Shown here: positions 12,599 to 51,852 of the stretch, one piece after another | Numbering within the stretch: position 1 is the stretch's first letter | Layout of the letters: every line of letters begins with the position of its first letter | IMG/VR virus record: IMGVR_UViG_3300017987_000120 | Location: 1 to 51,995 of that record | Length of the DNA: 51,995 bases | Strand: one strand, 5' to 3' | Source: a virus | The notes under the pieces: generated by a model | The model's database searches: none | Told to the model about the DNA's origin: nothing | The model's input: the letters and a program-made list of their open reading frames with translations, nothing else | Translations under genes and position numbers: made by a program

Positions 12599-14149
12599 GT
12601 GGATTACGACTACGCCAAAGATCGCTTCCTTGCACTGAGCAATAGCGACATGCTTGCTGCTGCGCTATTAGACCCCCCACGTAGCGAATGGAACCACGAC
12701 CAGACCGCAGTGTGGTCAATCATTGTGCGTCTGGCGATGTACTTCGCACGCGAAGATGGCGACGAAACAGAATGGATGTCCTACCTCCCGGTGATCAAGG
12801 GAGAAGACGAGCAGGGCAAGAGCCGCGACCGAGCTACCCTCAAGGCTTCGATCCTCAAGGACATTGAGGATACCTACCAGGACTGGCACGACCAGGAGCA
12901 ACACCGACAGAAGTGGCTCAAGGAGCACCCGGGTGAGAACTACAGCATTGCTCCGGAGCCAGTCATCGGTATTTACTACCTGCGCGAATACTTCAACCAG
13001 GCGGGGGAGAGCCTCACCGGAGGACACTACCCTACCCTCGGTGAGCGCCAGAAGTCCCACCTCATCCGCACGCTGCTACGCGAGCTGGTGAAAGAAGGTA
13101 AGCTCGAACGCAGCACAGCTTACGACCCAGTACGCAAGCGCGAGACTCCGGCGTACAGCCCAGTAACCTCGAATCAAGAGGAACAAGAGGGTCCGGAACA
13201 AAACGTCGGTTCCCCGCCACCCAAGCCCGGCATCACCAACCCCGCCGACATTGACAAAGACGCTTACTACACCGTTTGGGAGCGGCACACCGACGGCAAG
13301 ACTTGGATGCTCGACCGCTCCTACCGTGGCATCTACTTCACCCCCAACACCGAGGGGGTCTTCTACGTCAACTCGCCGGACCATGTAGTCATGCCGCAAG
13401 GAGAGAATCCTAACGAAGGTGTGGCAGCGGACAAAACAGAGCAGCCAATACTCGGACTTGAGCCGGGTCCTTACAACGACATCCTTCGGGAAATCTGGGA
13501 CAACTACCACACAGGCAAGTGGGACGACAAGCGCATCGCACGCAAAGATAAGCGCCGACTCTCTAGGATGGCTCGGCTGATTCCGTTGGACCATAACGGC
13601 ATTCAACTGATCGACATCCTCACCACCCGCTCCGGATGGATGGGCGCTGACAAGATCCTCACCCGGCGGTACGCCGACGACACACGGCGCAACCGCGAGA
13701 TTGCTGGGGCACGGTCTGGGGGCAAGTTAGCCGCAGGCATAGCCTTTGTGCGCAAGGGCAAAGAAGGTCCCGAGGTGCTACTGGTGCATCCGACCAATGC
13801 CGGTTGGCGAGGCAGCTACGGGATTCCCAAGGGGATGGTCGAAGAGGACGAAGCTCCAAAGGCTGCTGCCTTGCGTGAGACTGCCGAAGAGATCGGCATC
13901 GAGGTGCCTGCCGGAAAGATTATCGGCGGTCCGTTCCACATGACCCACAAGGGAAAGGTGGTCACCTACTGGATTGCCGACGGTGCTGGGATGAAAGACC
14001 GAATCCCGAAGGCGCGCTTGCAAACGGAGGAGGTCGATTGGGCCGGCTTCGTAGCACTGGGCACCGAAGCTGAGCGCCGTACTCACATCGGACAGTATCA
14101 AGTGCTCCAACAAGTTGCTGAATTCTATCGGCTGTGGAAGGGCAAGTGA
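12599..14149 (+). CDS. Nudix hydrolase-tailed phage protein
   Basis: The protein has 516 residues and a GTG start three bases after the previous stop. Residues 380-516 form a Nudix domain. The Nudix box runs from GMVEEDE through seven residues to RETAEEIGI (about residues 411-433), with all catalytic Glu and Arg positions present. Nudix enzymes cleave nucleoside diphosphates linked to another group, such as ADP-ribose, NAD, caps or oxidised dNTPs. The N-terminal 45 residues (AKDRFLALSNSDM, then W...Q.AVW) match the N-terminus of the next protein, so they look like a shared module. The middle (100-370) is unrecognised. Its stop overlaps the next ATG (TGATG), so the two are co-translated. Confidence 0.8.
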   Translation: MDYDYAKDRFLALSNSDMLAAALLDPPRSEWNHDQTAVWSIIVRLAMYFAREDGDETEWMSYLPVIKGEDEQGKSRDRATLKASILKDIEDTYQDWHDQEQHRQKWLKEHPGENYSIAPEPVIGIYYLREYFNQAGESLTGGHYPTLGERQKSHLIRTLLRELVKEGKLERSTAYDPVRKRETPAYSPVTSNQEEQEGPEQNVGSPPPKPGITNPADIDKDAYYTVWERHTDGKTWMLDRSYRGIYFTPNTEGVFYVNSPDHVVMPQGENPNEGVAADKTEQPILGLEPGPYNDILREIWDNYHTGKWDDKRIARKDKRRLSRMARLIPLDHNGIQLIDILTTRSGWMGADKILTRRYADDTRRNREIAGARSGGKLAAGIAFVRKGKEGPEVLLVHPTNAGWRGSYGIPKGMVEEDEAPKAAALRETAEEIGIEVPAGKIIGGPFHMTHKGKVVTYWIADGAGMKDRIPKARLQTEEVDWAGFVALGTEAERRTHIGQYQVLQQVAEFYRLWKGK

Positions 14150-35521: not shown

Positions 35522-35962
35522 ATGGCGCTGGTCGCTGCCAACATCCGTGAAGCATACACCGTCCCCGCCGGGGGAACCCTGACTGGGCAAGTGGTCGAGG
35601 ACGCACTCTCTGTCACCGAGGTTCTCCTCCCCAAACTGGTGTTCATCAACTTCCACGACAGCGATGCCGTGACGCTGACCATCACCCGACTGACAGACCT
35701 TGGGGTGTCAGGCGATCCCGAAGATGACGGGAGTGTCACCGAGTCACTAGTGACCGATCAGTCTATCGCCGCGGGAGAGTCCTACACCTACACCCCGGAC
35801 TTTCAGAATCTCGTAGCCGCACAGTCAACCCCCTGCGTACAACACCTCCTCGCCTTCGACAACGGCGGAGGAAGTGAAGACATCATCGTGCAGATGTTCA
35901 TCAGTGGGATGGTTGAAGAGGCCACACGCACGACGATCCTCCAGTACGAACGCCAGACCTAG
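35522..35962 (+). CDS. beta-rich probable virion protein
   Basis: The protein has 146 residues, mostly strands with Thr/Val/Asp-rich turns (YTVPAGGTLTGQVVEDAL, AVTLTITRLTDLGVSGD). The N-terminal half resembles Ig- or jelly-roll-like phage particle proteins in composition only. It has a GGGGGA ribosome site and ends 10 bases before the next gene. Not recognised by family. Confidence 0.55.
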   Translation: MALVAANIREAYTVPAGGTLTGQVVEDALSVTEVLLPKLVFINFHDSDAVTLTITRLTDLGVSGDPEDDGSVTESLVTDQSIAAGESYTYTPDFQNLVAAQSTPCVQHLLAFDNGGGSEDIIVQMFISGMVEEATRTTILQYERQT

Positions 35963-35972
35963 GATGCCGAAC

Positions 35973-38036
35973 ATGACTCCCGACATCGCGCTTCGCCGCT
36001 TGGCCCTCACCGGACAGAACGCCCTACAAGACCTCTGCGTTGAGAAGCATCCGGTTCTCCGACGCACACTGGCATTGGCCGCAGCAGACGCCTACGACGA
36101 CGCACTAGTCCGCGTCGATCAGGTGTTGCGTCGCGCAGCACGTCCCGAGTACGCCCGAGCAGAAGACTACGCACTGCTGCTGGGTGATGCCGGGGAGAGT
36201 CTGCGGGCGCAAGTGCTAACTCTCGGGCGCTGTGCTCGCCTGCTGGAGCGGTTGCCCTCGTGGGATGTGTCGGAGCTTCCCGAGTACCTGTGGCAAGCCA
36301 CGGCAGAAGTACACCAAGCTCTCGATCAACTCGAAGAGGAAATCGTAGCTCGGAGGGCCCCCGAGCAGCGGCTATCGTCGGAGCAGCAGACCTCGCTGAA
36401 GCAGTTAGTCGAGGAGATTCTCGACGCCGTGAGCCGCACGCGCAAGACGTTCACCTTCGAGCACCGCATTCCCGAGCAATTCCGCTCTTCCCTGCGCCAC
36501 GACGCAGCCATCCAACAAGTACAGCGACTGATCCCACCCTTCAGCGGTCAGCAGAAGCGGGACTTTCGGAGGGTGCTGTGGGAACAGGCCCTCGACGACG
36601 ACGTAACGGTCAACGCGCGCGACTACACCGTAGCCTACAACAAGGCCATGGCCAACTACGAGCACCGTCTTCGTGACGGCTACTTGCCTGGCGGGGGTTC
36701 GGCGACAGTGCGGCTCGGCAAGGATGTAGTTCCGAACAAGAGCTACACCATCGCCCGAGAGTTCGTTCTCGGGTCAGGCGAGAACAACCGAGTACGCTGG
36801 ACGGTGACCCTCCAGCTAGTGCCTCGGACAGCTTTCACCCTAGTCTTCCGATTCTCGCTGAAGTCACGCGGCCTACAGTCGGTGATGAAGAAATGGCTCC
36901 GCAGCGCCATGTCCGTGATGCGCGATACTGCCGACAATCCCGAAGCCGAGAAGGACTACCAGCGCGAGCAGATCCGCGAAGCACTGCACGCCGCGCAGGC
37001 ACGTCTGGATCGCGCCTTTGCGCGGGGCCATGTAGCCGCGCAGGTATCCCAAGGCGACGACGGAGGAACCCTGCTGGAAGTCGAGATGACGCGCACGCAA
37101 GAGCTACACCTCCCCACCGACGAGACCAAGCGCGCGAAGCAGATGATGCAGATGCACGGAATCAACCGCGCGTTGTTCGGAACTCGGTCAGCAGCGGAGC
37201 AGAAGGCCCGCGCGCTAGTGGAGCGTCTTGGCTGGGTGTTGGTGGCAGCACAGGAGGTTCGGGAGCGTTCCACCGACCTACACACCTTCGGGTTCAAGTT
37301 CTTCTTCACCCTCCCCGAGAATGTGCGCCCAGGGATGGTCGTGAAGACGCTGGATCAGCTAGCGTGGGCCATCGGCAAAGGTCGCCAACCCATCGACCAA
37401 GATGCCCAGCAACAGATGCAGCAGTTTGAGCAAGAGTTCGGGGTGGCTCGGACAAACAAGCAGTCGGCACAGGTACAGCGTTCGGTTCTCCGCCGCAAGC
37501 TGGCACTACGCATCGACAAGATGCTGCGTGACGAAAACCTGCTGCTGTCCAACTACATGCGCACCCAACTCGAACGCATGAAGGTTGACTGGCTGGAAAG
37601 CCGCGACGTGGCCTTCAAGGATCTGAATGCCCTCGTCTTTGATATCCCCAACGAGCTGGATCGCGTCGAGGAGACCTTCCGACACGCCAGTGTCGCTCGC
37701 CCAGACACTACCAAGCTGCGTGGCTTCCTGCTACGCACCATGCCGAACCTCCGGAATGCCCGGGCGCGCCTGGTCTATGCCGGCCTCGAAGACCGGCGCG
37801 TGCCCTGTCGAGAAGACATCATCGACATGGTAGTCGCCATGGCCGAGAATGACGTAGAGCGCTACGGAAGAAGCAGCGACACCTATCGACTGCACATTAT
37901 CAACGGAACACCGATGACAACGCAGCAGGTAGTGGCTGTGGCCTCTGCCGACGTGAGCCTCTCTTTTGAGAGCACCGGGCGCACCCTGGAAATCGTCACC
38001 GAGATCAGCGCCGCAGCACAACGCCGAGTTGCTTAG
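35973..38036 (+). CDS. large helical protein, unknown, probably virion-associated
   Basis: The protein has 687 residues, charged and helix-rich with long coil-like stretches (DYQREQIREALHAAQARLDR; Gln-rich QDAQQQMQQFEQEFG). Two strand-rich inserts (VRWTVTLQLVPRTAFTLVFR; LHTFGFKFFFTLPENVRPGM) may be related to each other. No enzyme motif was found. ATG 35973 is preferred (AGGA spacing) over 35964; an open extension to 35874 lies in the previous gene. The end overlaps the convergent primase gene by four bases. Confidence 0.55.
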   Translation: MTPDIALRRLALTGQNALQDLCVEKHPVLRRTLALAAADAYDDALVRVDQVLRRAARPEYARAEDYALLLGDAGESLRAQVLTLGRCARLLERLPSWDVSELPEYLWQATAEVHQALDQLEEEIVARRAPEQRLSSEQQTSLKQLVEEILDAVSRTRKTFTFEHRIPEQFRSSLRHDAAIQQVQRLIPPFSGQQKRDFRRVLWEQALDDDVTVNARDYTVAYNKAMANYEHRLRDGYLPGGGSATVRLGKDVVPNKSYTIAREFVLGSGENNRVRWTVTLQLVPRTAFTLVFRFSLKSRGLQSVMKKWLRSAMSVMRDTADNPEAEKDYQREQIREALHAAQARLDRAFARGHVAAQVSQGDDGGTLLEVEMTRTQELHLPTDETKRAKQMMQMHGINRALFGTRSAAEQKARALVERLGWVLVAAQEVRERSTDLHTFGFKFFFTLPENVRPGMVVKTLDQLAWAIGKGRQPIDQDAQQQMQQFEQEFGVARTNKQSAQVQRSVLRRKLALRIDKMLRDENLLLSNYMRTQLERMKVDWLESRDVAFKDLNALVFDIPNELDRVEETFRHASVARPDTTKLRGFLLRTMPNLRNARARLVYAGLEDRRVPCREDIIDMVVAMAENDVERYGRSSDTYRLHIINGTPMTTQQVVAVASADVSLSFESTGRTLEIVTEISAAAQRRVA

Positions 38037-40052: not shown

Positions 40053-41786
40053 ATGCCGAAGACGCTCCCCCCCGAAGAGCACGACGCCTTTTTCGATCGA
40101 AGCTACTACACTGACCCCGAGCACCCACAGGGGTGGTACTCTATTGGCGACCGCCCGGCCAACCTCGAAGAGGAAGAAGACTATTCTTGGGAAGACGCCG
40201 CACGCACGCTACTGGCGCTCTTCCCAGAAGCAACGTCATTCCTCGATGTGGGGTGTGGTACCGGCAATATCATGGATGCCCTGGTAGCCGTTGGCGCGCA
40301 ACAAAACCGAACCATCGAGGTGTGGGGCATCGACCTCTCTTCAGCGGCGCTGGACCTAGCACAACCGGAGACACGCCAGCGCATGGCGCTGATGGACATC
40401 GCGCAAGCGTCCCCAGTGAATCTCGCAATGGCCGGACTACCGGTTCGGTTCGATGCAGTGTACGCCTTCGGAGTGCTCCAGTATTTCGAGGAGGAGGTGC
40501 TACGTGAGGTTCTCGAACGACTCTTCACCCTCGCTCGCAGGGGCTTCTACACCGAAAATGAAGATGAGGCGGCGCGCGATCCGCACGTGCATGTACGCAG
40601 CCCGAAGCAGTGGCACGCCCTTGTAAAAGACGTGTCGCCGGCAGGGTGGCGTACCACCCTGCACCCTGCCGAGCAATCGTTCTTGCTGGTTGACAGTGTC
40701 CTAGCCGAGTGGACGCCGTCGCGAACGGAGCACGTTTACGATGACTACACCGTTGTCGTTCACAACCTACCCACCGCGCCGTTCGAAGCTACACCACTGC
40801 ACTGCCGCGCGTCCATCGAGACACTCTTCCAACTCGACGGTTGGGGTATGTACGATCTGTACTACCACGGACAGTTAGTAGCCTCCGTGCCCCACGCCAC
40901 CGCCAGTGGCCAAGAACTGTACGAGTGGTTCGAATACATCCGAGAATTCCCGCAGACTTCCTGCTGCCACCGGTGGTACTGCACGGATCCCAAGTACCTG
41001 CTCAAGCTGGCACAGCTTTGCAACGAACATCCGGAGGAGTTGGGCACCTTCACCCTCCGACACCTGTGGCCCGAGCCGACAGTGGTGGAGGTCTTCGGAA
41101 GCACTCCCTTCATGTTTCACGATGGCGATTCGTGGCTGATACCCCGAACCAAGACGGAAGAGGCGTTCGTAGCCCTGGTGGGGGCGGCACATTCGGCAAA
41201 GACTCGGCGCAAGTATCGAAGCAAGATTCGCAAGCATCGCGCCATGGGCGATTTCTGTGCAGTTCGAGTGGACGCACAGCGCGTGTTCGAACGTGACTTC
41301 ATGTCCCTTATCCGAAACAGCAACTTCCGGGATGAGGATGAGGATCCCAACACGTTCGACCTTTGGTTCGAGATCAACTACACCCACATCCTCGAACTAG
41401 CACGTACCGCACCCGACTACCTGCGCGTCTTCGAGATACTACGCGACGGCAAGCTCTGGGGTGTTGACATCTGGGCTCGACTAGAGTGGACACAGGGCGT
41501 ATGGGAACGGCTGTGGTTCGGCCACGTCCCGCTATCAAAGCACGAACGCCATGTTGCCCTTGGCCAAGTGTTCACTTGGTTATCTTCGCAGGCGCTAGCT
41601 GCTGAAAACGGGTCGTATCTGTCACACGGCGCGGACGCCGTCGAAATCCTAGAAGAACAGTATACCGCAGGATACTACAAACGCGACTTTGCGTCTAGCT
41701 ATGCAGTCAGCCTCACCGTGAACAGCGACGACTCCTATGGAATTCCAGAGGAGTTACTCCTCCCCGGCATCCACCCAAAGCAGTGA
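40053..41786 (+). CDS. SAM methyltransferase-like / acyltransferase-like fusion
   Basis: The protein has 577 residues. The N-terminal 190 form a class I methyltransferase core: FLDVGCGTGN (about 62-71, AdoMet loop), VWGIDLSSAALDLA (motif II) and FDAVYAFGVLQYF (motif IV). The C-terminal about 300 residues include KTRRKYRSKIRKHRAMGDF and RDGKLWGVDIWARL and end with AGYYKRDFASSY, a pattern like GNAT/FemX acyltransferases. The family of that half is a tentative reading. It opens the island containing DpdA and two QueC genes, so a role in completing a base modification is inferred, with methyl and acyl transfer as candidate reactions. Confidence 0.65.
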   Translation: MPKTLPPEEHDAFFDRSYYTDPEHPQGWYSIGDRPANLEEEEDYSWEDAARTLLALFPEATSFLDVGCGTGNIMDALVAVGAQQNRTIEVWGIDLSSAALDLAQPETRQRMALMDIAQASPVNLAMAGLPVRFDAVYAFGVLQYFEEEVLREVLERLFTLARRGFYTENEDEAARDPHVHVRSPKQWHALVKDVSPAGWRTTLHPAEQSFLLVDSVLAEWTPSRTEHVYDDYTVVVHNLPTAPFEATPLHCRASIETLFQLDGWGMYDLYYHGQLVASVPHATASGQELYEWFEYIREFPQTSCCHRWYCTDPKYLLKLAQLCNEHPEELGTFTLRHLWPEPTVVEVFGSTPFMFHDGDSWLIPRTKTEEAFVALVGAAHSAKTRRKYRSKIRKHRAMGDFCAVRVDAQRVFERDFMSLIRNSNFRDEDEDPNTFDLWFEINYTHILELARTAPDYLRVFEILRDGKLWGVDIWARLEWTQGVWERLWFGHVPLSKHERHVALGQVFTWLSSQALAAENGSYLSHGADAVEILEEQYTAGYYKRDFASSYAVSLTVNSDDSYGIPEELLLPGIHPKQ

Positions 41787-41820
41787 GTCCCGAAGGGTAA
41801 GAGAGTAGCAGGGAGTGAAA

Positions 41821-42033
41821 ATGCCGGAAGACACACCAACCGGATGGTTCATTGAGTCCATCGAGGGCACCGGAATAATCAATAGTGGTCCTGTGTCGAG
41901 GTGGTACCCCACCGACGCGCAAGCCGAAGCCATCTACGCGGCAGCCAAAGCCGCCGATCTTGACCTGAGTTCGTTCATAGCACAGTTTGACAACATCAGC
42001 GAGCTGCTGATGGCTGTTTTCGGAGAGAAATGA
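41821..42033 (+). CDS. small protein upstream of DpdA, unknown
   Basis: The protein has 70 residues and starts at ATG 41821 with GGGAG five bases upstream. It has a beta-start (GWFIESIEGTGIINSG) and a C-terminal helix (SSFIAQFDNISELLMAVFGE). It ends one base before the transglycosylase ATG and is surely co-transcribed with it. It may be an accessory subunit; no family was recognised. Confidence 0.6.
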   Translation: MPEDTPTGWFIESIEGTGIINSGPVSRWYPTDAQAEAIYAAAKAADLDLSSFIAQFDNISELLMAVFGEK

Positions 42034-42034
42034 C

Positions 42035-44032
42035 ATGCCCCTCGAGTGGATCCCCAGCGCCGCTTGGCCGCGCTCTATTACCTGCTTGCGCATCTACTCC
42101 CGATGGGAAAACAATGGCCTGGTGCGGGGTTTCAAAGCCACGCAACCTACCCCGCAGACCACACTGCTGCGGTTCCCACACAGAACCATCCTCACCGTGT
42201 GGGAACCGCGTGACTACCCAGATCCTTCCGAGTGGGAGACTGTCCATGATTTCTCTCCTTTCGAAGAGGGTACGGTAGGCCGACGAATGCTCTCCTCGGT
42301 GCTCATCAGCGCCGAGGCGGCACATGACAAGACGGCCATTCGAGACATGGAGCGTTCGCGTCCGGGTGCAGTGATGCACGACATGAGTACCTGGAATCAC
42401 AGCGAACTAGAGATCATGGGAGATTCCGGTGGGGCACAGCTCTATGCCGGAAAGATCAACTACATCGACCCGAAGAAAGTCATCAACTTCTACAACAAGG
42501 GCGTCAACATCGGCACTGCGTGTGACATCCCGCCACGCATTGTTGATCAAGAGCACCGCAGCGTTGTCAGGGCATGTGCCTATGCGCAACGAGCGAACAA
42601 CCGGGTATTCCACCGAGAGCGCGCCGATGGTCTCCGGCTACTCAACGTAGCCCACGGCTTCGACCTACGCCAGGTGCGCAACTTCATCGACATAGTCTCC
42701 GGACGCAACGGAGAGTACGTGTGGGATGGCTGGGCAGTTGGCTCGGGAGCATGGCTCGAGATGGCGCTACTGCGCAACTGCATCACGGTACTCAAAGAGG
42801 CTCCGTGGAGCACCACTCGCACGGTGGTGAAGCGCTCCAAGAAGAGCGGCAAGCGCCGCAAGGTCGAAGTCCCCTACAAGCACCTGCACCTCTTCGCAGT
42901 CGCTGGACCCTCCCGGATGCCCTTCTACGCCTGGCTCGGAAAGTACATAGACCGTTTCACCGTCGACAGCACCCACTGGTTGCAGGGCGTGCGGTACAAC
43001 CGCTACCTGATGCTCGAACCCGGCGGTGATCTCAAGCTCTACCCGATGGGGCGCGAGCGTACCAAGCAGCAGTACATCGAGGCAGGCACCATGCCAGTGC
43101 CAGGCGTTCCGTTGCCTTGCTCCTGTCCGGTGTGCAGCCTACTTCCAACATGGGATGTCTTCGCACTTCCGGCGAAGTTCCGCATGTACTCGCTGCTGGC
43201 GTGGCACAACATCTATACGCTGCAACGTCTGACCGCCATGTGGTCAAACATGGCAATGACCATGGACGAAGACGAGTATCGCGACTGGGCGGTGTACATC
43301 GCTGGCGAGGGTGCCCACTTCCAGATCGACTTCATCGAGCACTGCATCCACGAGGGATTGGATGCAGCCAACGAGTCAGAGCGCATGACCTTCGCCTTCG
43401 AGAAGGCGGGGCACGGGGCGGCACACGTACTATTCCCGGGAGCAGAGCACGAGGACCCGAACGACCCGGTAAGCCTGCTCGGATCCAGCAACATGCTGGC
43501 TGGGAGCACCCTGCCCTCACAGGTCGAGACAACACTCCCCAACTACCTTCCACCGAAGGTACTACGCAAGCTCGGGTTGGATGTCCACCCGATCACCAAG
43601 GACCGCAAGCGGGCGATCACCAAGAAGCTGCCGCGCAAGCGCTACAAGTACAAGCAACACTCGAAGGAAGACTTGGTCAACGCCATCGAGCAGTGGCTCG
43701 AAGAGCACCCGGATGTGCAGATCGAAAACCTGCATATCGCCAAGCCGCCACCAAAGAAGGCCAAGGACGGAACAGTCACCGCAGTAGCGCCGTACACCAT
43801 CGTCTTCAAGGACCAAGAACTCATCCTCGACAAGCTCAAGAGCAACGTTGAGCGCCGTGCCTTCATCAAGAAGTACAAGATTCCGCTACCCAAGCTCCAG
43901 AAGATCGGGGAGGTAGTGCTCATCACCGATGAGGAGTGGCAGCGTCAAAAAGACGAAGAGAAGAAGAAAAAGTCGCGATACCGCAAGAAGAAAGTGAAAC
44001 GCGCTCTCCGGAACAAGAAGCGGAAAAAGTAA
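42035..44032 (+). CDS. dpdA: DpdA-like DNA 7-deazaguanine transglycosylase
   Basis: The protein has 665 residues and resembles the tRNA-guanine transglycosylase/DpdA superfamily. MGDSGGAQL (about residues 126-134) matches the TGT DSGGFQ base-binding motif. GTACDIPP (about 158-165) gives a candidate catalytic Asp. VWDGWAVGSGAWLEM aligns with the conserved Gly-rich loop, and HLFAVAG/RFTVDSTHW precede a zinc site, CSCPVC (about 361-366). The enzyme exchanges guanine in DNA for a 7-deazaguanine base. The last about 130 residues are exceptionally Lys/Arg-rich and likely bind DNA. QueC genes directly downstream support a DNA rather than tRNA role. Confidence 0.78.
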   Translation: MPLEWIPSAAWPRSITCLRIYSRWENNGLVRGFKATQPTPQTTLLRFPHRTILTVWEPRDYPDPSEWETVHDFSPFEEGTVGRRMLSSVLISAEAAHDKTAIRDMERSRPGAVMHDMSTWNHSELEIMGDSGGAQLYAGKINYIDPKKVINFYNKGVNIGTACDIPPRIVDQEHRSVVRACAYAQRANNRVFHRERADGLRLLNVAHGFDLRQVRNFIDIVSGRNGEYVWDGWAVGSGAWLEMALLRNCITVLKEAPWSTTRTVVKRSKKSGKRRKVEVPYKHLHLFAVAGPSRMPFYAWLGKYIDRFTVDSTHWLQGVRYNRYLMLEPGGDLKLYPMGRERTKQQYIEAGTMPVPGVPLPCSCPVCSLLPTWDVFALPAKFRMYSLLAWHNIYTLQRLTAMWSNMAMTMDEDEYRDWAVYIAGEGAHFQIDFIEHCIHEGLDAANESERMTFAFEKAGHGAAHVLFPGAEHEDPNDPVSLLGSSNMLAGSTLPSQVETTLPNYLPPKVLRKLGLDVHPITKDRKRAITKKLPRKRYKYKQHSKEDLVNAIEQWLEEHPDVQIENLHIAKPPPKKAKDGTVTAVAPYTIVFKDQELILDKLKSNVERRAFIKKYKIPLPKLQKIGEVVLITDEEWQRQKDEEKKKKSRYRKKKVKRALRNKKRKK

Positions 44033-44036
44033 GCCC

Positions 44037-44723
44037 ATGTCCCGAAGAATCCTTGTCCTGCTTTCCGGTGGGTTGGATAGTGCAGCACTGCTGTACCAAG
44101 CCTGCCGCATGGTCTCTCCACGAAACGTGGAGGCTATCACCTTCGACTATGGGCAGCAGCACCACCGTGAGCTGCTAGCTGCCAAGGTCATGGCTCGGTC
44201 CTTGCTGGCTTGGAACAACTGGCAACAGCTCAACTTAGCAGTGATTCCGGAGATTGTGCAGTCGCGACTAACCGGCAACGGTGACAACGACTGGGTTCCC
44301 GGACGCAATCTCATCTTCGTTTCGGTGGCCGTTGCCTACGCAATGACACATCGATGCCAAGAGATACTCCTCGGTTCTGTGGCGGCAGACATCTACCCCG
44401 ACAACAGCACCAATTTCGTCAAAACAGTCAATGCGACAGTACAGGAAACCTTCCCCGGACACACTCTAGGGGTGAGTGTGCCACTCAAGACGCTATCGAA
44501 GCGTCAAGTGATTGAACTAATTCCGCCGGGCTTGGCTCGGCTTACGCACTCCTGTTACGCAGGTGTCTGGCCCCCGTGTGGCGAATGCAAAGCCTGCAAA
44601 GACCGGGAGTTGGGGTATGCAGAGGCCGGAATTCCCGATCCACTGCTGGTAGCAGAAACCGACCCACTTCTCGAAGAATCCTACAGTGACCTTTTGCTTG
44701 TGAGCGACGCTCACCAGGAGTAA
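44037..44723 (+). CDS. queC: 7-cyano-7-deazaguanine synthase QueC
   Basis: This is a 228-residue protein of normal length. It has the PP-loop LSGGLDSAA (residues 8-16), FDYGQ (about 39-43), PGRNLIF (about 87-93) and the zinc motif CYAGVWPPCGECKAC (about 172-186). QueC converts 7-carboxy-7-deazaguanine to preQ0 with ATP and ammonia. No QueD or QueE is in this window, so the precursor comes from the host or from genes elsewhere in the phage. It sits four bases after dpdA and two bases before the second QueC-like gene. Confidence 0.92.
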   Translation: MSRRILVLLSGGLDSAALLYQACRMVSPRNVEAITFDYGQQHHRELLAAKVMARSLLAWNNWQQLNLAVIPEIVQSRLTGNGDNDWVPGRNLIFVSVAVAYAMTHRCQEILLGSVAADIYPDNSTNFVKTVNATVQETFPGHTLGVSVPLKTLSKRQVIELIPPGLARLTHSCYAGVWPPCGECKACKDRELGYAEAGIPDPLLVAETDPLLEESYSDLLLVSDAHQE

Positions 44724-44725
44724 CA

Positions 44726-45556
44726 ATGTCCGCACACCCGCTGACCGAGCCCGCAGTTCTCATCTCTGGCGGTGGCATTGACACCTGGGTTCTCGGACAC
44801 ATGTTGGCTGCCAGTGGCTTGCCGTTGCACCTGATCTGTTTCGACTATGGGCAAGTATCCTTCGCAGGCCAACGCTTTGGCACTTCCAAGCTCGGCCGGG
44901 CGTTGCGGCGTCGTTTCAATGCCGAGGTGCAGTGTGTCTACCCGGACATCAGCGAACACATGCGCAGCCTGCTGGGGCCGCGAGCAGCGGATATTGCGCA
45001 GCTTTCCGGAGCAGCGCCTATCCCGCGCACCTTCGAGAGTGTTGAGGAAGAGCTACAGGACGCAGGCGGCCTGGCCAACTCCAAGACTTTCGGCTTCACC
45101 CCAGGGCGCAACGGGATGTTCCTCTACCACGCCGCTATCTATGCTGCATGTCGCGGCCTATACCGTGTCTACTGGGCGCAGCAATCATCGCTTCGGAGCT
45201 TCAAGGAGACGCGGTGGGGCGAGGATCACTACGGCGACGATCAGTGGTTCCCGTTCCTGGAGAAGCTCAATCGGTGGCTGCCCAACGCCATTGGGCTGCC
45301 GGTTGAGGTGGTTGTACCGCTGTGGTTCCAGAGCAAACTCGAGAACATGCGTCTCGGGGTGGCATTGGGGATGGGTGTTGAAGACTTCGAAAACACCTGG
45401 TCCTGTGAACATGCAAACCGCTGTGGGGTGTGCCCACAGTGTCAGGAGTTCATCGAACTCTACCCGCGGCTGTATCTCAATGATACCCCCACGTGGTGGC
45501 ACCCGATGCTCGCGCGCCGCGAGCGGCGCATTCTCGAACTGACCGCAGAGGAATAG
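44726..45556 (+). CDS. divergent QueC-like PP-loop protein
   Basis: The protein has 276 residues and is clearly a QueC relative. Its PP-loop reads ISGGGIDTW (Gly-Gly-Ile-Asp-Thr in place of GGLDS), FDYGQ and TPGRNGMFLYHA are kept, and CEHANRCGVCPQC (about 228-240) retains the zinc cysteines. It is about 50 residues longer than QueC, mainly in an insert around residues 65-115. The paralog next to a normal QueC implies a different substrate, for example amidation or another change of the 7-carboxy/7-cyano group. It has a good ribosome site (CAGGAG). Confidence 0.8.
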   Translation: MSAHPLTEPAVLISGGGIDTWVLGHMLAASGLPLHLICFDYGQVSFAGQRFGTSKLGRALRRRFNAEVQCVYPDISEHMRSLLGPRAADIAQLSGAAPIPRTFESVEEELQDAGGLANSKTFGFTPGRNGMFLYHAAIYAACRGLYRVYWAQQSSLRSFKETRWGEDHYGDDQWFPFLEKLNRWLPNAIGLPVEVVVPLWFQSKLENMRLGVALGMGVEDFENTWSCEHANRCGVCPQCQEFIELYPRLYLNDTPTWWHPMLARRERRILELTAEE

Positions 45557-45558
45557 GG

Positions 45559-46353
45559 ATGACTTCTGCATTCGGCGAAAACGTACTGTTCACCACCGCG
45601 CTGGCATTAGCGCTAGGCGTTCCGAAGATCGACTGGGGCACCGGAAGGTGGAGCGACACAGACGAGGCGCACCGCATCGTGCTTCCCACAGCAGATCAAC
45701 CGCTGCTGCGGGTTTGGCTGTTCGAAGGAATCTACCTGGCGTACCAATACAAGCATGACGGGGTGCGCGGCAATGGCACCCTTACTGCATGTCACGTACT
45801 CCGGGAGTTCATCAACCGACCTACCTCTGCGAACTTCAACTTGCTGTTGGACTGGGCTGGGATCTTCCTTCACGATCTGCATCGCGACGCAACCGCACTA
45901 GATGTTGTTCGGCTAGAACTGTTAGTCGACATCGAAGATATGTATGCTATTTTCGACGTGGTTGACCCAGACACCCTCTCCGAGGAAGAGGCGGCCGCCT
46001 TCATCACGTGGGACGACGAAGACGAAGACGAAGAAGAGGGTTGGGAAGATGAAACCGAGGAAGAACCCGCAACTGGGTTCTACATTTCGGAGACTATTGG
46101 TATCGTTCCTTCTGACCCGCTGCACGCGGCAGAGCTGGCTGCACAGGGGTTCGAGATGCGCACTGCTACACCACCACCAGCCACTCCCGGTGTCGACAAA
46201 GACTCCGAGGATGAAACCGAAGAGGTCCGGCGGATACGCCATCAGCACGAGCGTAAAGAGGCCATTGAACGCATCGAAGCACGCAACAACGAACGCAAGA
46301 CGCCGGGCCAAAGGGTGGTCTTGTTTGGCCCGGACGGCAAGGAGCTGCTGTGA
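45559..46353 (+). CDS. protein with acidic tail in the deazaguanine island, unknown
   Basis: The protein has 264 residues. The N-terminal 140 are globular alpha/beta (VLFTTALALALGVPKIDWGT, ADQPLLRVWLFEGIYLAYQY). Residues 150-180 are almost all Asp/Glu, and the tail is charged and helical (RRIRHQHERKEAIERIEARN). No enzyme motif is visible. It starts three bases after the second QueC stop and overlaps the next gene by four bases, so it is a member of the same operon. Confidence 0.6.
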   Translation: MTSAFGENVLFTTALALALGVPKIDWGTGRWSDTDEAHRIVLPTADQPLLRVWLFEGIYLAYQYKHDGVRGNGTLTACHVLREFINRPTSANFNLLLDWAGIFLHDLHRDATALDVVRLELLVDIEDMYAIFDVVDPDTLSEEEAAAFITWDDEDEDEEEGWEDETEEEPATGFYISETIGIVPSDPLHAAELAAQGFEMRTATPPPATPGVDKDSEDETEEVRRIRHQHERKEAIERIEARNNERKTPGQRVVLFGPDGKELL

Positions 46354-47441
46354 TCTACCGAACCTCCAGTCCCGAGTCCTGGTTCCTTGAATCCCTCCCG
46401 ATCCGGAACGGGTACGAACGCATGGTCTTTGCGCAGTACGCCCTCCGCAGCCGCAACAGCGAAATCTACTCTGATACCTTCTGGCTCACCAACGGAAAGG
46501 ACTGGTGGGTGGGCATCGAGGAAGAACTGGACTGGGCCGAGTTCAGCATCAGTGTCTCCAAGGGAGAGACCCCAACCTTGGCCACCTTCCCGCGCGTACT
46601 CATGCCGTACTACACCACCACCTACGGTTACCTACTCGACTACTTCATGCCAGCGGGAATCCCGTGGGAAGATTTCGGTATGCGAGCTGTCCCGAAGGGT
46701 TGGACAACCAAGAAGACCTATCCGAAAGATATGGGATTCAAGGCGGCCCCTCCTGGAATCGTGCGCCACCTGCCCTACAAACAACGCGGCTTTGAGCACT
46801 GGCTCCGCTCCAACCGTCGCGACCTTGTCAGATTCTTCTACGGGTCAATCTCGAAGGAAGTGACGTACTCTATCGTCACCGACCCCCTCCTGATCCTTCG
46901 CTCGGCAAGCCGACTCCTGGCACACTTCGAAGGCAAGTGGCAAGAGTATCATGCGCAATGGAGTCAGCAAGTGTCCGAAGTGGTGGACTCGGATACCTTC
47001 CAGACGCTTGCTGACAGCGGCGTGGTCTTGCCTGGACGGCACACCGCTCGGCTGGAGAGCGATAACTCGGTATTCATGTTCTTGCACCTTGAGTTCCTCC
47101 CCGCAGTGCTGTCTGGGCGCGGGTTTGCAGTGATTGCCTCCGTCGACGACAAGCCAATCGCTTTGGTCAGTTGTAGAAGCACCGGCTCAAATCTGGAATT
47201 CCACACCGAGCTAGTGATGCGGCACACCGACCCAAGCTATCGACGGTACGCACTGGTCCCAGTGCTACACGCGCACGCTATTCGAGAGGCGTGCTGGAAT
47301 CGAGGAGCCGATACCCTCGATATGTCGAACAACTGGGACCCGAGTATTGACGGCTACAAGAGCGCCTTCGGGGCTGTCGATGTACCACTCCCCGGGCTGC
47401 GTTGGATTGAGCCCCGGAGGCTAGGCGCACAACGAGTGTAA
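46350..47441 (+). CDS. GNAT/FemX-like acyltransferase-like protein
   Basis: The protein has 363 residues and a GTG start overlapping the upstream stop. Residues 225-345 show an acetyltransferase-like order: a strand pair GFAVIASVDDKPIALVSCR, a strand TELVMRHTDPSYRRYALVPV and helix HAHAIREACW, then DTLDMSNNWDPSIDGYKSAF, as in FemX-type GNAT folds, where Tyr-Lys near the end is common. The N-terminal 200 residues are unassigned. Last gene of the island before a hairpin. A role in decorating the deazaguanine base is inferred from context only. Confidence 0.5.
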   Translation: MIYRTSSPESWFLESLPIRNGYERMVFAQYALRSRNSEIYSDTFWLTNGKDWWVGIEEELDWAEFSISVSKGETPTLATFPRVLMPYYTTTYGYLLDYFMPAGIPWEDFGMRAVPKGWTTKKTYPKDMGFKAAPPGIVRHLPYKQRGFEHWLRSNRRDLVRFFYGSISKEVTYSIVTDPLLILRSASRLLAHFEGKWQEYHAQWSQQVSEVVDSDTFQTLADSGVVLPGRHTARLESDNSVFMFLHLEFLPAVLSGRGFAVIASVDDKPIALVSCRSTGSNLEFHTELVMRHTDPSYRRYALVPVLHAHAIREACWNRGADTLDMSNNWDPSIDGYKSAFGAVDVPLPGLRWIEPRRLGAQRV

Positions 47442-47559: not shown

Positions 47560-50118
47560 ATGCAAAGCGACACACCCTCGGGCGACTACTTCCTTTCCAA
47601 TTACGAGCGCTCGCTCTTCGAGGGGAGGTACCAAGACCCGGGCTCCGATACCGAGTCCACCTGGGAGGACGCCTTCAGGAGAGTAGGCCACGCAGTTGCC
47701 GAGGGCAGCGTTTTCGAGACACCCGAAGGGCGCATTGCCTTCGAAGAAGAGATCATCGAGATGATGGTCACCGGTCAAGCCATTCCGTCCAGTCCGCAGG
47801 TCTGGAACTATGGCTCTGCCAGAAGGCACAACCGCTGCGGGTCCTCTTGCTATACAGGAGAACTCGGCGATACGCTGGAGGACTTCGCCACAACCAACAG
47901 CCACGCCGAATCCGTCTACGTGGCATCGGGTGGTTTTGGTGTCTGCGGCAACAAGGCTCGGCCCCGTGGCACGAAGATCACCTACGCCAAGAGCTGTGCG
48001 GTTGGGATACTCGGTCGCGGGGGGCCGCTAGACCGAATTGAGCGCACCACTGGATACATCACCAACGGCGGCCGTGAGCGCGGTGCCGCGATGTTCCAAT
48101 TGTCAGCATGGCATCCCGACGCCGTCGAGTTCATTCTCGCCAAGGTGCCGGTGAGCCTCGGGTTCCTTGACGACTGGAGAGCGAATGCCTGTGCCATGCT
48201 TGGCGCAGTCGATTCGAAGCTGCTAGCAGTCATCGATCTATACACCAGCAAGTACGTCTTCCGAAAGGAGTGGCCGACGGCAGATGAGCTGATGCCGGAC
48301 CTCCTAGAGCGCGATGCAGGGCTGGCCTTTGGCCACATGATCAGTGTCGGTGTGATCGCAGAAGACAGCCGCAGGCGCATGGTGCCGCGCGTCTTCGACT
48401 GGGCCTTGAGTGGTTGGCGGGAGGCCAACCGAGACTGGGACCTCCCGATGCAGAACTGCAACATGAGCTTGCGGATCCCGGACGCGTTGTTCAATGCGGT
48501 AGAAAACAACGAACCCTGGGTTCTCTCGTGGTTCAGCAAGGAGAAGCCGAAGCAAGGTGAGTATCCGTGGACCAAAACTGACCTCGGATCTGGCAAGCTG
48601 GAGACCTTTGGCAACGGGGATGTCTTCGATGTCAACGAGGAGCGCACCGAGGTATTCGACATCGAAATCGGAGACGACACCCAACACGCCCCCAACAACG
48701 GGAACTACCGCTACGCGGTGTTGATCACTACCTGGGAGGGGCTGCTCGAGAACCTCAAGCCCAACCCAAACAACTGGAAGGAAACCGAGTACGCTCGACG
48801 CTTCCGCAACGTCATTGTGCCGACACTAGAGCGCTATGGGAAGGGCACCATCATGGCGCGGGACTTCTTCGACCTCATCGTGCGCACCGCCTGGGAGTGT
48901 GGCGACCCGGGGCTAGTGTCCGAAGATACCTATGAGCGGTTCAACCCTGTCGATTCCGAAGTCTATGGTGTGCGTATCTCCAACCCCTGTTCGGAGTATG
49001 TCAGCCCTCCGGGAGGATCGTGCAACCTCATATCGCTGAACCTACGGCTAGCTGCTGAGACGATCAATACCCGAGAGGACAAGGCCGAACTACGAGACTT
49101 GCTGCTTCCGGGGATATGGAACACCTCGGGATTTGCAAGCGCGACAGACTGGGAATACCTCATGGGTACCCGCGCCTTCGCCACATACCTTGCGGCCATC
49201 CGAGCAGCAGCCAAGCGCGCCTTCAAGTACATCGCCCACGCGGCAGAATTCAACAAAGCTCCGGTAGAGTACATCGATCGGATGACGCGCGAGCACTTCC
49301 GGACCGTCGGCGTTGGCATCATGGGCCTCGCAGAAGCACTGATGCTGTTCCACGTGGCCTACGGCAGTGCTTGTGCGCAACGCTTCGCCGCGAGCACCAT
49401 GGCGGAAATCTATCTCACCTGTTGGGAAGAGAGCTTCCGACTGGCTGAGTTCGGTGGGTGGCCCAAGCCAAAGGGATGGAACCCTGACCGGATGCGCAAC
49501 ATCTTCGATGCGCGTATCGAATACGCTGAGGAGTACGTGTTGCTAAGGGAGCAACGCCATCGACTGGCAGCTCTCCAACACAACATCGATGTCGGACTGT
49601 ACGCCACCCACACCGCAGTGACATCTGTAGCTCCTACAGGGACAATTGCCCAGATCGCTGGGTGGCTGATGTCGCGACTGGCTAGCAACGGTGTGGCCCA
49701 CAACATCAGCGTCAACTCGGGACTGGAGCCGGCGTTCTCGTGGGCAGTTGGCCGACAAGACAACAACGGACACGCGGTCATCTACCACGACCTGTGGTTA
49801 CAGCGCGAGCACTACGGCAAGTCGTGGATGCGCAAAGCATCCAGCATTCCCGCAGAAGATCATGTGCGTATGCAAGCGGCTGTGTGTGCCTTCACCTGCA
49901 TGTCGGCAAGCAAGACAATCAACCTCCCGGAAGATGCCACGGCGGCAGACGTAGCCGCCGCATACACTCTCGCACATCGCCTCGGAATCCCCGGCACCGC
50001 CGTCTACCGGGATCGCTCAAAACCCATGCAGGTGCTCACTGCACTGGATTGTCCCTCGGGGGACTGCAAGGTTGACTCCGATGCAGGCTGGGGCAAGGAC
50101 GCGCCAGCAAACGCATAA
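47560..50118 (+). CDS. nrdJ: adenosylcobalamin-dependent (class II) ribonucleotide reductase
   Basis: The protein has 852 residues. Motifs of the RNR barrel are present: RHNRCGSSCYTG (about 88-99, redox Cys), NPCSEY (about 475-480, thiyl Cys and Glu), GSCNLISLNL, and the phosphate loop VAPTGTIAQIAG (about 690-701) followed by SGLEPAFSWAV. The overall pattern is that of NrdJ rather than NrdA or NrdD, and no small subunit or activase gene is nearby. The C-terminus has CPSGDC, a possible re-reducing Cys pair. It makes deoxynucleotides using B12 and works without oxygen, so it needs host cobalamin. It is transcribed alone, with its own downstream terminator. Confidence 0.88.
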   Translation: MQSDTPSGDYFLSNYERSLFEGRYQDPGSDTESTWEDAFRRVGHAVAEGSVFETPEGRIAFEEEIIEMMVTGQAIPSSPQVWNYGSARRHNRCGSSCYTGELGDTLEDFATTNSHAESVYVASGGFGVCGNKARPRGTKITYAKSCAVGILGRGGPLDRIERTTGYITNGGRERGAAMFQLSAWHPDAVEFILAKVPVSLGFLDDWRANACAMLGAVDSKLLAVIDLYTSKYVFRKEWPTADELMPDLLERDAGLAFGHMISVGVIAEDSRRRMVPRVFDWALSGWREANRDWDLPMQNCNMSLRIPDALFNAVENNEPWVLSWFSKEKPKQGEYPWTKTDLGSGKLETFGNGDVFDVNEERTEVFDIEIGDDTQHAPNNGNYRYAVLITTWEGLLENLKPNPNNWKETEYARRFRNVIVPTLERYGKGTIMARDFFDLIVRTAWECGDPGLVSEDTYERFNPVDSEVYGVRISNPCSEYVSPPGGSCNLISLNLRLAAETINTREDKAELRDLLLPGIWNTSGFASATDWEYLMGTRAFATYLAAIRAAAKRAFKYIAHAAEFNKAPVEYIDRMTREHFRTVGVGIMGLAEALMLFHVAYGSACAQRFAASTMAEIYLTCWEESFRLAEFGGWPKPKGWNPDRMRNIFDARIEYAEEYVLLREQRHRLAALQHNIDVGLYATHTAVTSVAPTGTIAQIAGWLMSRLASNGVAHNISVNSGLEPAFSWAVGRQDNNGHAVIYHDLWLQREHYGKSWMRKASSIPAEDHVRMQAAVCAFTCMSASKTINLPEDATAADVAAAYTLAHRLGIPGTAVYRDRSKPMQVLTALDCPSGDCKVDSDAGWGKDAPANA

Positions 50119-50221: not shown

Positions 50222-51130
50222 ATGCCGAAGTTGCGCTTCCGAACCCACTACGACGCCAAGGGCCGGCCGCAACTGCGCCACGTCAAGGGTCCGCTGGATG
50301 AAGGCGATGCCGTCGATCTAGGGATGCTTTGGTACGAGCCAAAGAAGGACGACCCCGAGCCTGTCGGCTACTACTACTACGAACACCCCCGCAACGAGGA
50401 AGCAGTGCGCCGCATGAAGCGGGTGTTCAAGACGCGCGGCTACATCGCCCAGGTCAAGGTAGTCGACGGGCGGGGCGACCCCGCCGACAACCTGCTGCTC
50501 CCCGACCGCCCCCCGACGCTTCAGAAGCGGTTCGTGTCGGTCTTCGGCGGAGATGTCACCATCGCACCGCAGGGCACCTGGGACCTTGCGGATCTGCTCA
50601 TCGACAAGCACCACCCGCACCTGGCCAACGCCGCCATCCTCTTCGTCTTGGAGGACTTCGAGCCAGAGGACATGGGGGACAAGTTCGGAACCCAGGGCGA
50701 GGTCTGGGGATTCTGCCAGACCCTCGGCGGGCAGTTCCGCAAGCTCACCGGCTTCGACTTCAAGATCACCTTCTGCGAGGGCGTCTGGCGGTTGCTGCCG
50801 TCTCGTGCCCGACGCTGGCTCTGCGATCACGAGATCATGCACTGCGGGCGCAACGACCGCGGTCGTTGGGTGTTGAATGACCACGACATCCAGATGTTTT
50901 CGGAAGAGCTGACACGCTACCCGCATATCGAAGCCAACGTGCTGAAGCTCAACCAGATCGTGGCGGCCAAGCTCCTCGGTGAAGAACAAGACAGGCTCGA
51001 CGAGGAGATCGAAGAAGCCAAGCCGAAGAAGCGCAAGAAGAAGCGCAAGAAGAGAGCCGAAGCCTGCTACGCTCCAGAGCGGCTGGCCACAGCGGTGCCG
51101 CGCGGCACCTATAAGAGACTTCCTCGATGA
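50222..51130 (+). CDS. putative phage metallopeptidase
   Basis: The protein has 302 residues. The zinc motif DHEIMHCGR (HExxH, about residues 201-209) is followed by NDHDIQMFSEEL, the layout of a phage metallopeptidase family I recall as PhageMetallopep (His-Asp plus Phe helix after the HExxH). A beta-strand-rich N-terminal 100 residues precedes it. The tail is Lys/Arg-rich (residues 260-285). ATG 50222 with AAGGAG; the frame upstream to 50072 overlaps the terminator and nrdJ end and is rejected. The role is unknown; proteolysis of host or phage proteins is possible. Confidence 0.7.
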   Translation: MPKLRFRTHYDAKGRPQLRHVKGPLDEGDAVDLGMLWYEPKKDDPEPVGYYYYEHPRNEEAVRRMKRVFKTRGYIAQVKVVDGRGDPADNLLLPDRPPTLQKRFVSVFGGDVTIAPQGTWDLADLLIDKHHPHLANAAILFVLEDFEPEDMGDKFGTQGEVWGFCQTLGGQFRKLTGFDFKITFCEGVWRLLPSRARRWLCDHEIMHCGRNDRGRWVLNDHDIQMFSEELTRYPHIEANVLKLNQIVAAKLLGEEQDRLDEEIEEAKPKKRKKKRKKRAEACYAPERLATAVPRGTYKRLPR

Positions 51131-51228: not shown

Positions 51229-51314
51229 GCGAGCATGGCGGAATTGGTAGACGCGCCGGACTTAGGATCCGGTGGGTAACTCCCGTGAGGGTTCGAGTCC
51301 CTCTGTTCGCACCA
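51229..51314 (+). tRNA. tRNA-Leu(UAG)
   Basis: Acceptor GCGAGCA pairs with TGTTCGC, anticodon loop CTTAGGA gives UAG (reads CUA), with a long class II variable arm and an encoded CCA. Fully cloverleaf-compatible. Confidence 0.92.
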
Positions 51315-51339
51315 GCCTATATCAGCAGGAGAAAACCCC

Positions 51340-51597
51340 ATGCCGTCCTGTCCCGAGTGCAACGCACCAATGGTAGCTCGAACAAACAACCACACCAACG
51401 AACGATTCTGGGGGTGTAGCAGCTTTCCAAGGTGTCAATACTCGCAGTCTTTCACCGAAAAAGACTATGCAGCGCAGTCGAACAAGAAGTACCAACGAGA
51501 AGCGGCTTCGGTCACCGACTACAGCAACCCTATCGATGACCTCGGAGCTGCCCACTACTTCGAAGAGTATGGGGTATACCCTCCCGGATACAACTAG
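51340..51597 (+). CDS. topoisomerase-type C4 zinc-finger protein
   Basis: The protein has 85 residues. The N-terminal 35 form a C4 finger, CPECNAPMVAR ... FWGCSSFPRCQYS, the same layout as the zinc fingers at the C-terminus of bacterial topoisomerase I, which bind single-stranded DNA. The remaining 50 residues are acidic/aromatic. Inside the tRNA cluster, between tRNA-Leu and tRNA-Lys, with GGAGAAAA as ribosome site. Stand-alone copies of this finger occur in phages and could serve in DNA binding. Confidence 0.78.
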   Translation: MPSCPECNAPMVARTNNHTNERFWGCSSFPRCQYSQSFTEKDYAAQSNKKYQREAASVTDYSNPIDDLGAAHYFEEYGVYPPGYN

Positions 51598-51605
51598 CAG
51601 TCAGC

Positions 51606-51678
<73 letters not shown>

Positions 51679-51685
51679 CCTTCTT

Positions 51686-51772
51686 GCCCGGATGGTGGAA
51701 TTGGTAGACACAGGAGACTTAAAATCTTCCGGCCCATAGGCCATGCGGGTTCGACCCCCGCTCTGGGCACCA
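51686..51772 (+). tRNA. tRNA-Leu(UAA)
   Basis: Acceptor GCCCGGA with TCTGGGC, anticodon loop CTTAAAA (UAA, reads UUA), long variable arm, T-arm GCGGG-TTCGACC-CCCGC, encoded CCA. Confidence 0.92.
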
Positions 51773-51777
51773 GCTTT

Positions 51778-51852
51778 TGGGGCGTCGACAAGCGGTAAGT
51801 CACCGGGTTTTGGTCCCGGCATTCGTAGGTTCGAATCCTACCGCCCCAACCA
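51778..51852 (+). tRNA. tRNA-Gln(UUG)
   Basis: Acceptor TGGGGCG with CGCCCCA, anticodon loop TTTTGGT (UUG, reads CAA) on a CCGGG/CCCGG stem, T-arm GTAGG-TTCGAAT-CCTAC, encoded CCA. Confidence 0.92.

Follow-up and report, generated by a model that had tools for sequence, protein, structure and literature searches.

A QueC paralogue and a DpdA-like transglycosylase in one phage operon suggest a decorated 7-deazaguanine in phage DNA

Positions 40053-47441 of the viral record IMGVR_UViG_3300017987_000120 (IMG/VR), which was analysed over its complete length of 51,995 bases (the window), contain an operon of seven plus-strand genes, among them a guanine transglycosylase resembling the DNA-modifying DpdA enzymes, a canonical QueC and a divergent QueC-family protein called here QueC2. 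The window is a piece of a phage related to the "jumbo" phages of 200-310 kb. Judged from the sequence, 7-deazaguanine modification of the phage DNA is very probable. The modification itself is well supported, whereas the chemistry of its decoration is deduced: the best explanation of the whole island, which we hold with about even confidence, is a DpdA-type DNA modification with a base that would be extended by an amide-forming QueC2 and then acylated and methylated. The parts supported by the sequence are the enzyme families, the intact or changed active-site residues, the operon structure and the recurrence, across related phages, of the QueC-QueC2 pair together with genes of the Acetyltransf_6-like type. 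An earlier note on this DNA had proposed a 7-deazaguanine modification island with decoration enzymes; its enzyme set is confirmed, and decoration-type genes accompany the QueC pair in cultured relatives as well. The residue losses in QueC2 and its possible role as an amine ligase, the gap in the precursor genes FolE, QueD and QueE, and the cultured phages with related islands go beyond that note.

The transglycosylase P0002 (42035-44032, plus strand; 665 amino acids with a Lys/Arg-rich tail) was assigned by its homologues, active-site residues and profile match. The DSGG motif and the zinc site that the earlier note had seen are present: the aligned active site consists of DSGG (D130), D164 and D311, the zinc site reads C362xC364xxC367...H391, and none of the 36 transglycosylases in the alignment departs from the three catalytic Asp residues. 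The Pfam model of tRNA-guanine transglycosylases (TGTs) matches P0002 weakly and at the zinc end only (E=0.017); the archaeosine-TGT model TIGR00432 matches at 3.6e-7. TBLASTN identified homologues in 18 of 50,697 phage records, every one a large phage: nine PpuM, three PhiXhv and two Motura phages, Ep032, NCTB and the Vibrio phages vB_VcorM_GR7B and GR11A. A profile built from seven homologues had its best match among solved structures in Pyrococcus horikoshii TgtA (archaeosine TGT, 1iq8; E=1e-13), while the bacterial DNA-guanine transglycosylase 7ui4 matched at E=0.011. When the profile was run against seven deazaguanine phages (9g, nt-1, HVTV-1, CP220, CAjan, 7-11 and MiCath), nt-1 alone gave a match (1.4e-5), in the gene YP_008125322 named DpdA2 in 2019 (PMC6884629). 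A viral-contig scan with P0002 alone found no relatives, but the transglycosylase alignment detected 44 homologous loci in IMG/VR; at least one preQ0 gene (FolE, QueD, QueE or QueC) lies nearby in 24 of these 44, and in 18 of the 22 loci of at least 13 kb. In the window, the adjoining gene is a QueC.

In the phylogenetic tree P0002 falls outside the clade of E. coli Tgt and P. horikoshii TgtA (98/99) and on the side of the jumbo-phage enzymes, with weak support (79/89). Of the comparisons suggested in the earlier note, the one with tRNA TGTs separates P0002 from these enzymes; with respect to DpdA1-4, the match in nt-1 DpdA2 is the only one that the profile gave among the seven phages. The base-pocket Gln of tRNA TGTs is replaced by His in P0002 (His207), in all ten enzymes of the jumbo group including that of the window, and in nt-1 DpdA2; a Lys/Arg-rich tail is common to most of the group. 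Sequence comparison therefore places P0002, its own position in the tree being weak, with a jumbo-phage DpdA-like group that is found beside preQ0 genes and is distinct from tRNA TGTs. DNA is its probable substrate because of the linkage to preQ0 genes, the tree, the His change and the basic tail.

P0003 (44037-44723, plus strand; PF06508, 1.6e-40) is a canonical QueC, the preQ0 synthase. It contains SGGLDS, YGQQHHRE, VPGRN, YPDN and a CxxC zinc site, so that all motifs of the canonical signature are kept, but the Cys of YPDC is Asn and the zinc loop is one residue shorter. P0004, or QueC2 (44726-45556, plus strand; PF06508, 1.6e-13), is the divergent QueC that had been noticed next to the normal one. 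Mutagenesis of E. coli QueC has shown that both Tyr131 and Tyr189 are essential for queuosine (PMC13329287). The residues of P0004 at these columns are Gly and Glu; identical changes occur in QueC2 of both GR7B and GR11A, with which P0004 forms one clade (97/95, long branches). P0004 still has the four zinc cysteines, the substrate-site Asp, the RN motif and YGQ, and its PP-loop is kept with one extra residue. Of 19 QueC-family sequences, no others than these three QueC2 proteins have "CE" where the first zinc cysteine lies, and Cap9 likewise has it there (PMC13329287). In P0004 this Cap9-type motif is CEHANRCGVCPQC, its spacing being shorter by two residues than the CE(x)6C of the literature. 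Cap9 ligates carboxy-deazaguanine (CDG) to the amine of glycine (PMC13279940). For Cap9 the acceptor of CDG is a protein amine, and such a ligation has been proposed for QatC too (PMC13279940, PMC11996544). We consider QueC2 likely to be a non-canonical member of its family. Because it has lost the equivalents of Tyr131 and Tyr189 and shares the CE signature with Cap9, this ATP enzyme may form an amide and not preQ0; a role as CDG-amine ligase is a possibility to which we give slightly less than even confidence. Viral-contig scans with P0004 and with the QueC2 alignment yielded no relatives, nor did a genome-contig scan with QueC2. Of the archaeosine (dG+) route through ArcS, Gat-QueC or QueF-L, neither ArcS nor Gat-QueC is represented, the Gat domain being absent from both QueC proteins of the window and DUF5591 from the record.

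The core genes are flanked by P0001 (40053-41786, plus strand), a fusion of a class-I S-adenosylmethionine-dependent methyltransferase (amino acids ~45-165) with a weak C-terminal Acetyltransf_6 region (PF13480, FemX/GNAT-type), and by P0006 (46350-47441, plus strand), a weak Acetyltransf_6 match; they are a possible decorating enzyme and a possible acyl or aminoacyl transferase, respectively. Of the methyltransferase/acyltransferase fusion described earlier, the methyltransferase is solid (Methyltransf_12, 5.3e-13); its matches are small-molecule and tRNA methyltransferases, and neither of the motifs DPPY and PC, typical of classical DNA methyltransferases, was seen on inspection. The acyltransferase half and the GNAT/FemX-like protein P0006 are weaker than stated: in hmmscan both stay under the Pfam gathering cut-off of 22 bits (P0001, 14.2 bits, E=0.049; P0006, 17.3 bits, E=0.0054). 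Yet a PF13480 search restricted to the record returned these two matches only (P0006, 47100-47327, 4.1e-5; P0001, 41196-41498, 2.8e-4). Applied to cultured phages, this search matched two genes in the GR7B island, one in that of GR11A and two in that of PhiXhv-15, and no others in these three; NCTB and Motura, which are without such islands, gave nothing, and a single match in Peetri lies off its island. We lean towards the flanking enzymes acting on the modified base. No homologue of P0001 or P0006 was found by TBLASTN in the phage records, none of P0006 or the P0001 C-terminus by phmmer in the PDB, and none of P0001 in viral contigs; a profile made from related island proteins ranked P0006 first among non-members, with E=1.2 only.

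The closest cultured counterparts are the islands of GR7B (MT366760) and GR11A (MT366761), with the gene order DUF5591 - QueC - QueC2 - Acetyltransf_6-like - FemX-like - ATP-grasp - lysine aminomutase (a lysine-2,3-aminomutase) - GNAT. Like the window, they have QueC next to a QueC2 of the one clade and then an Acetyltransf_6-like protein, as well as a related TGT and terminase. They differ in the additional DUF5591 (the ArcS domain), ATP-grasp, aminomutase and GNAT genes, in a TGT encoded elsewhere and in the lack of the methyltransferase fusion.

According to the scheme that we propose, the precursor CDG would be supplied by FolE, QueD and QueE from the host or from elsewhere in the phage genome, and QueC would convert part of it to preQ0. 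QueC2, in which the ATP site is kept, would activate the CDG carboxylate, couple it to an amine and halt at the amide. The transglycosylase would swap guanine in DNA for the modified base, its basic tail gripping the DNA; the two Acetyltransf_6-type proteins would acylate or aminoacylate the side chain and the fused methyltransferase would methylate, decoration before and after insertion of the base both being possible in the model. The resulting bulky base would block host nucleases. The DNA substrate, amide formation, the identity of the amine and of the acyl donor, the order of the steps and the protection are the parts of this scheme that we infer. Aminoacyl-tRNA can serve FemX-type enzymes as donor. 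More tentatively, we suggest a jumbo-phage lineage with amino-acid-decorated 7-deazaguanine DNA, in which a QueC paralogue couples an amino acid or an amine to CDG and transferases of the Acetyltransf_6/FemX type extend the product, together with ATP-grasp and lysine aminomutase in the cultured relatives and a methyltransferase in the window; this would be a so far undescribed class of DNA hypermodification.

Several observations weigh against this explanation. The scores of P0004 with QueC and with Cap9 are roughly equal, and long branches weaken both the transglycosylase and the QueC trees. Single-sequence AlphaFold models of the P0001 C-terminus and P0006 are too poor to show a double-GNAT fold (predicted local distance difference test, 34 and 38), and profile-profile comparison of P0001 and P0006 with the FemX-like families of GR7B was negative. 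The window also lacks FolE, QueD and QueE, and from the gene set of GR7B it lacks DUF5591, ATP-grasp and aminomutase.

A plain modification of a known type, although unlikely, retains a real share of the probability: DpdA would insert preQ0 or amido-deazaguanine (ADG), QueC2 would make ADG from CDG and ammonia or be defunct, and the methyltransferase and GNAT-like genes would be passengers. Given CDG, canonical QueC and a DpdA-like enzyme are enough for dPreQ0 (PMC6884629), the loss of the two tyrosines is equally compatible with an enzyme making ADG only, and the Acetyltransf_6 matches are weak. Against this reading, the flanking genes abut the core genes and hold the record's sole Acetyltransf_6 matches, and comparable genes again adjoin the QueC-QueC2 pair in GR7B and GR11A.

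We regard it as improbable, and rank it below DNA modification, that the operon modifies proteins in counter-defence or in a phage-protein role, QueC2 conjugating CDG to a protein N-terminus like Cap9 or QatC and the TGT-like protein acting as a binder similar to Cap10. Type IV CBASS (cyclic oligonucleotide-based antiphage signaling system) does couple QueC-like Cap9 with TGT-like Cap10 for protein deazaguanylation (PMC11996544), and the CE zinc signature is common to QueC2 and Cap9. But the transglycosylase retains every catalytic Asp, its homologues sit with FolE, QueD and QueE in many phages, and a canonical QueC is present too. A PADLOC scan matched neither a CBASS partner among the proteins scanned nor the TGT, and no protein of the operon starts with Met-Gly, as a QatB-type or CD-NTase partner would. 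Nor is P0004 supported as a Cap9, since the operon is without a CD-NTase and a Met-Gly acceptor and the scores do not place P0004 in Cap9.

Even less probable is insertion of the deazaguanine into phage or host tRNA, boosting translation: the closest solved relative is an archaeal tRNA TGT (1iq8) and the fragment carries four tRNA genes, but exclusion from the tRNA-TGT clade (98/99), the Gln to His change shared with nt-1 DpdA2, the basic tail and the linkage to preQ0 genes in phages argue against it. That the Acetyltransf_6-type proteins act on peptidoglycan, tail or capsid and lie near deazaguanine genes by chance is hardly credible, for although FemX-type enzymes classically use peptidoglycan precursors, which counts against our explanation too, the repeated co-location with QueC-family genes, the absence from island-less relatives and the tight operon speak against it.

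Compared with the phage DpdA/preQ0 systems of 9g, CAjan and Vibrio phage nt-1 (PMC6884629), the window has likewise a transglycosylase and QueC, homologues beside FolE, QueD and QueE, and the base-pocket His of nt-1 DpdA2. It adds the second, divergent QueC, the two Acetyltransf_6-type proteins and the methyltransferase, the fragment lacks FolE, QueD and QueE, and its enzyme has a zinc site that nt-1 DpdA2 is without in this alignment. Cap9 and QatC resemble QueC2 as QueC-family ATP enzymes, Cap9 also in the CE signature, but in QueC2 the substrate-site Tyr of YxDC is replaced, and neither a CD-NTase nor a Met-Gly acceptor accompanies it in the operon. Among modifications of phage DNA, the closest chemical precedent is the CmoX/CmoY system, in which CmoY ligates glycine to the carboxylate of 5-carboxymethylcytosine (PMC12783734); the logic of an ATP-dependent ligase amidating a DNA-base carboxylate is alike, whereas the base is cytosine and not deazaguanine and the ligase resembles asparagine synthetase and not QueC. 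Among the papers searched there was no published description of the island, and the PhiXhv genome paper makes no mention of deazaguanine. DpdA-type modification is known as a kind, but the variant with QueC2 and transferases appears to be new. DpdL, DpdM and DpdN, which also modify DNA 7-deazaguanine further, reportedly make methyl and formyl derivatives without QueC-type ligation, which sets them apart from the window. To our knowledge, the groups on the 7-deazaguanines of phage DNA are all small (cyano, amido and aminomethyl, and reportedly formyl and methyl). If our explanation is true, a QueC paralogue repurposed as amine ligase, with downstream transferases, would offer phages a modular way to attach larger side chains, for which the carboxymethylcytosine-glycine system and CBASS deazaguanylation are parallels.

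Comparable, richer clusters are present unnoticed in several cultured phages, so that the predicted base is directly testable, including in phages of Pseudomonas putida KT2440. The Pseudomonas PpuM phages, such as Peetri, and Xanthomonas phage PhiXhv resemble the window in QueC-family genes accompanied by FemX-like proteins and in a related TGT. The Peetri island has two QueC-family genes, the second outside the QueC2 clade, several uncharacterised proteins, a homologous ATP-grasp, a FemX-like protein and an aminomutase. It lies in a thirteen-kb run of mostly unannotated genes (PP496444, locus L035, 6531-19988); the aminomutase is a lysine-2,3-aminomutase-like radical SAM protein, and the FemX-like and ATP-grasp genes recur across nine P. 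putida phages. PhiXhv-15 has FemX-like proteins and a GNAT fusion; it differs from the window in its Gat-QueC, a gene resembling a Leu/Phe-tRNA-protein transferase, sugar-type enzymes and a DUF5591 match, which is weak. This is possibly a sugar- and amino-acid-decorated variant; a MocA-type oxidoreductase, a glycosyltransferase and a PIG-L deacetylase-like gene stand beside Gat-QueC (PV764602, L037, 6807-16064). The FemX-like family of 380 amino acids occurs in 15 phage records, and the TGT family is found in every one of them; because the nine PpuM phages among them are closely related, these records represent about three lineages. Viral-contig scans with this family and with the terminase found no relatives. 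In Motura (MN094788, L004, 15312-21530), QueC, an asparagine-synthetase-like gene, a TGT homologue, QueE and FolE are clustered; by analogy with CmoY for carboxymethylcytosine, the AsnB-like product is another possible ATP-dependent ligase of the CDG carboxylate. The ~340-amino-acid proteins of NCTB were rejected as FemX-like candidates, being one paralogous family in the tail region without a Pfam match.

No end repeats are reported for the record, so the window is probably a fragment. Its terminase has matches in 91 phage records, mostly jumbo phages of ~200-310 kb, including PpuM, PaBG, PhiXhv, NCTB, Motura and Erwinia and Dickeya phages. FolE, QueD, QueE/radical SAM and DUF5591 were searched in the 51,995 bases and none was found. 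As FolE and PTPS/QueD-like genes are present in all six cultured phages searched (GR7B, GR11A, Peetri, NCTB, Motura and PhiXhv), the lack of FolE, QueD and QueE probably reflects incompleteness of the record; the cultured relatives encode these genes outside their islands, and a radical SAM gene near FolE in GR7B may be QueE.

The open reading frames (ORFs) of the island lie where the earlier note had placed them, in an operon as tight as it had claimed, with successive gaps of 28, 1, 4, 2, 2 and -4 bases. They look real, since in GC content by codon position they resemble the genes for terminase and portal. In addition to the genes named earlier, the operon includes a 72-amino-acid ORF with a GTG start (41815-42033, plus strand; called from the ORF and its spacing) and an acidic 264-amino-acid ORF (45559-46353, plus strand; isoelectric point 4.4), which had no match in family-library scans; neither was assigned a function. 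The last gene of the island is separated by 118 bases from a ribonucleotide reductase large-subunit-type gene (47560-50118), followed by a phage metallopeptidase-like gene (50222-51130) and, ~4 kb 3' of the operon, by the tRNA genes (Leu, Lys, Leu and Gln; 51229-51852). Next to the primase locus lies the gene of a 720-amino-acid protein (35874-38036) with a GTG start and no Pfam match, and a 516-amino-acid protein of the structural-gene region (12599-14149) contains a Nudix-like stretch at amino acids 373-436 (PHROG, 1.7e-10).

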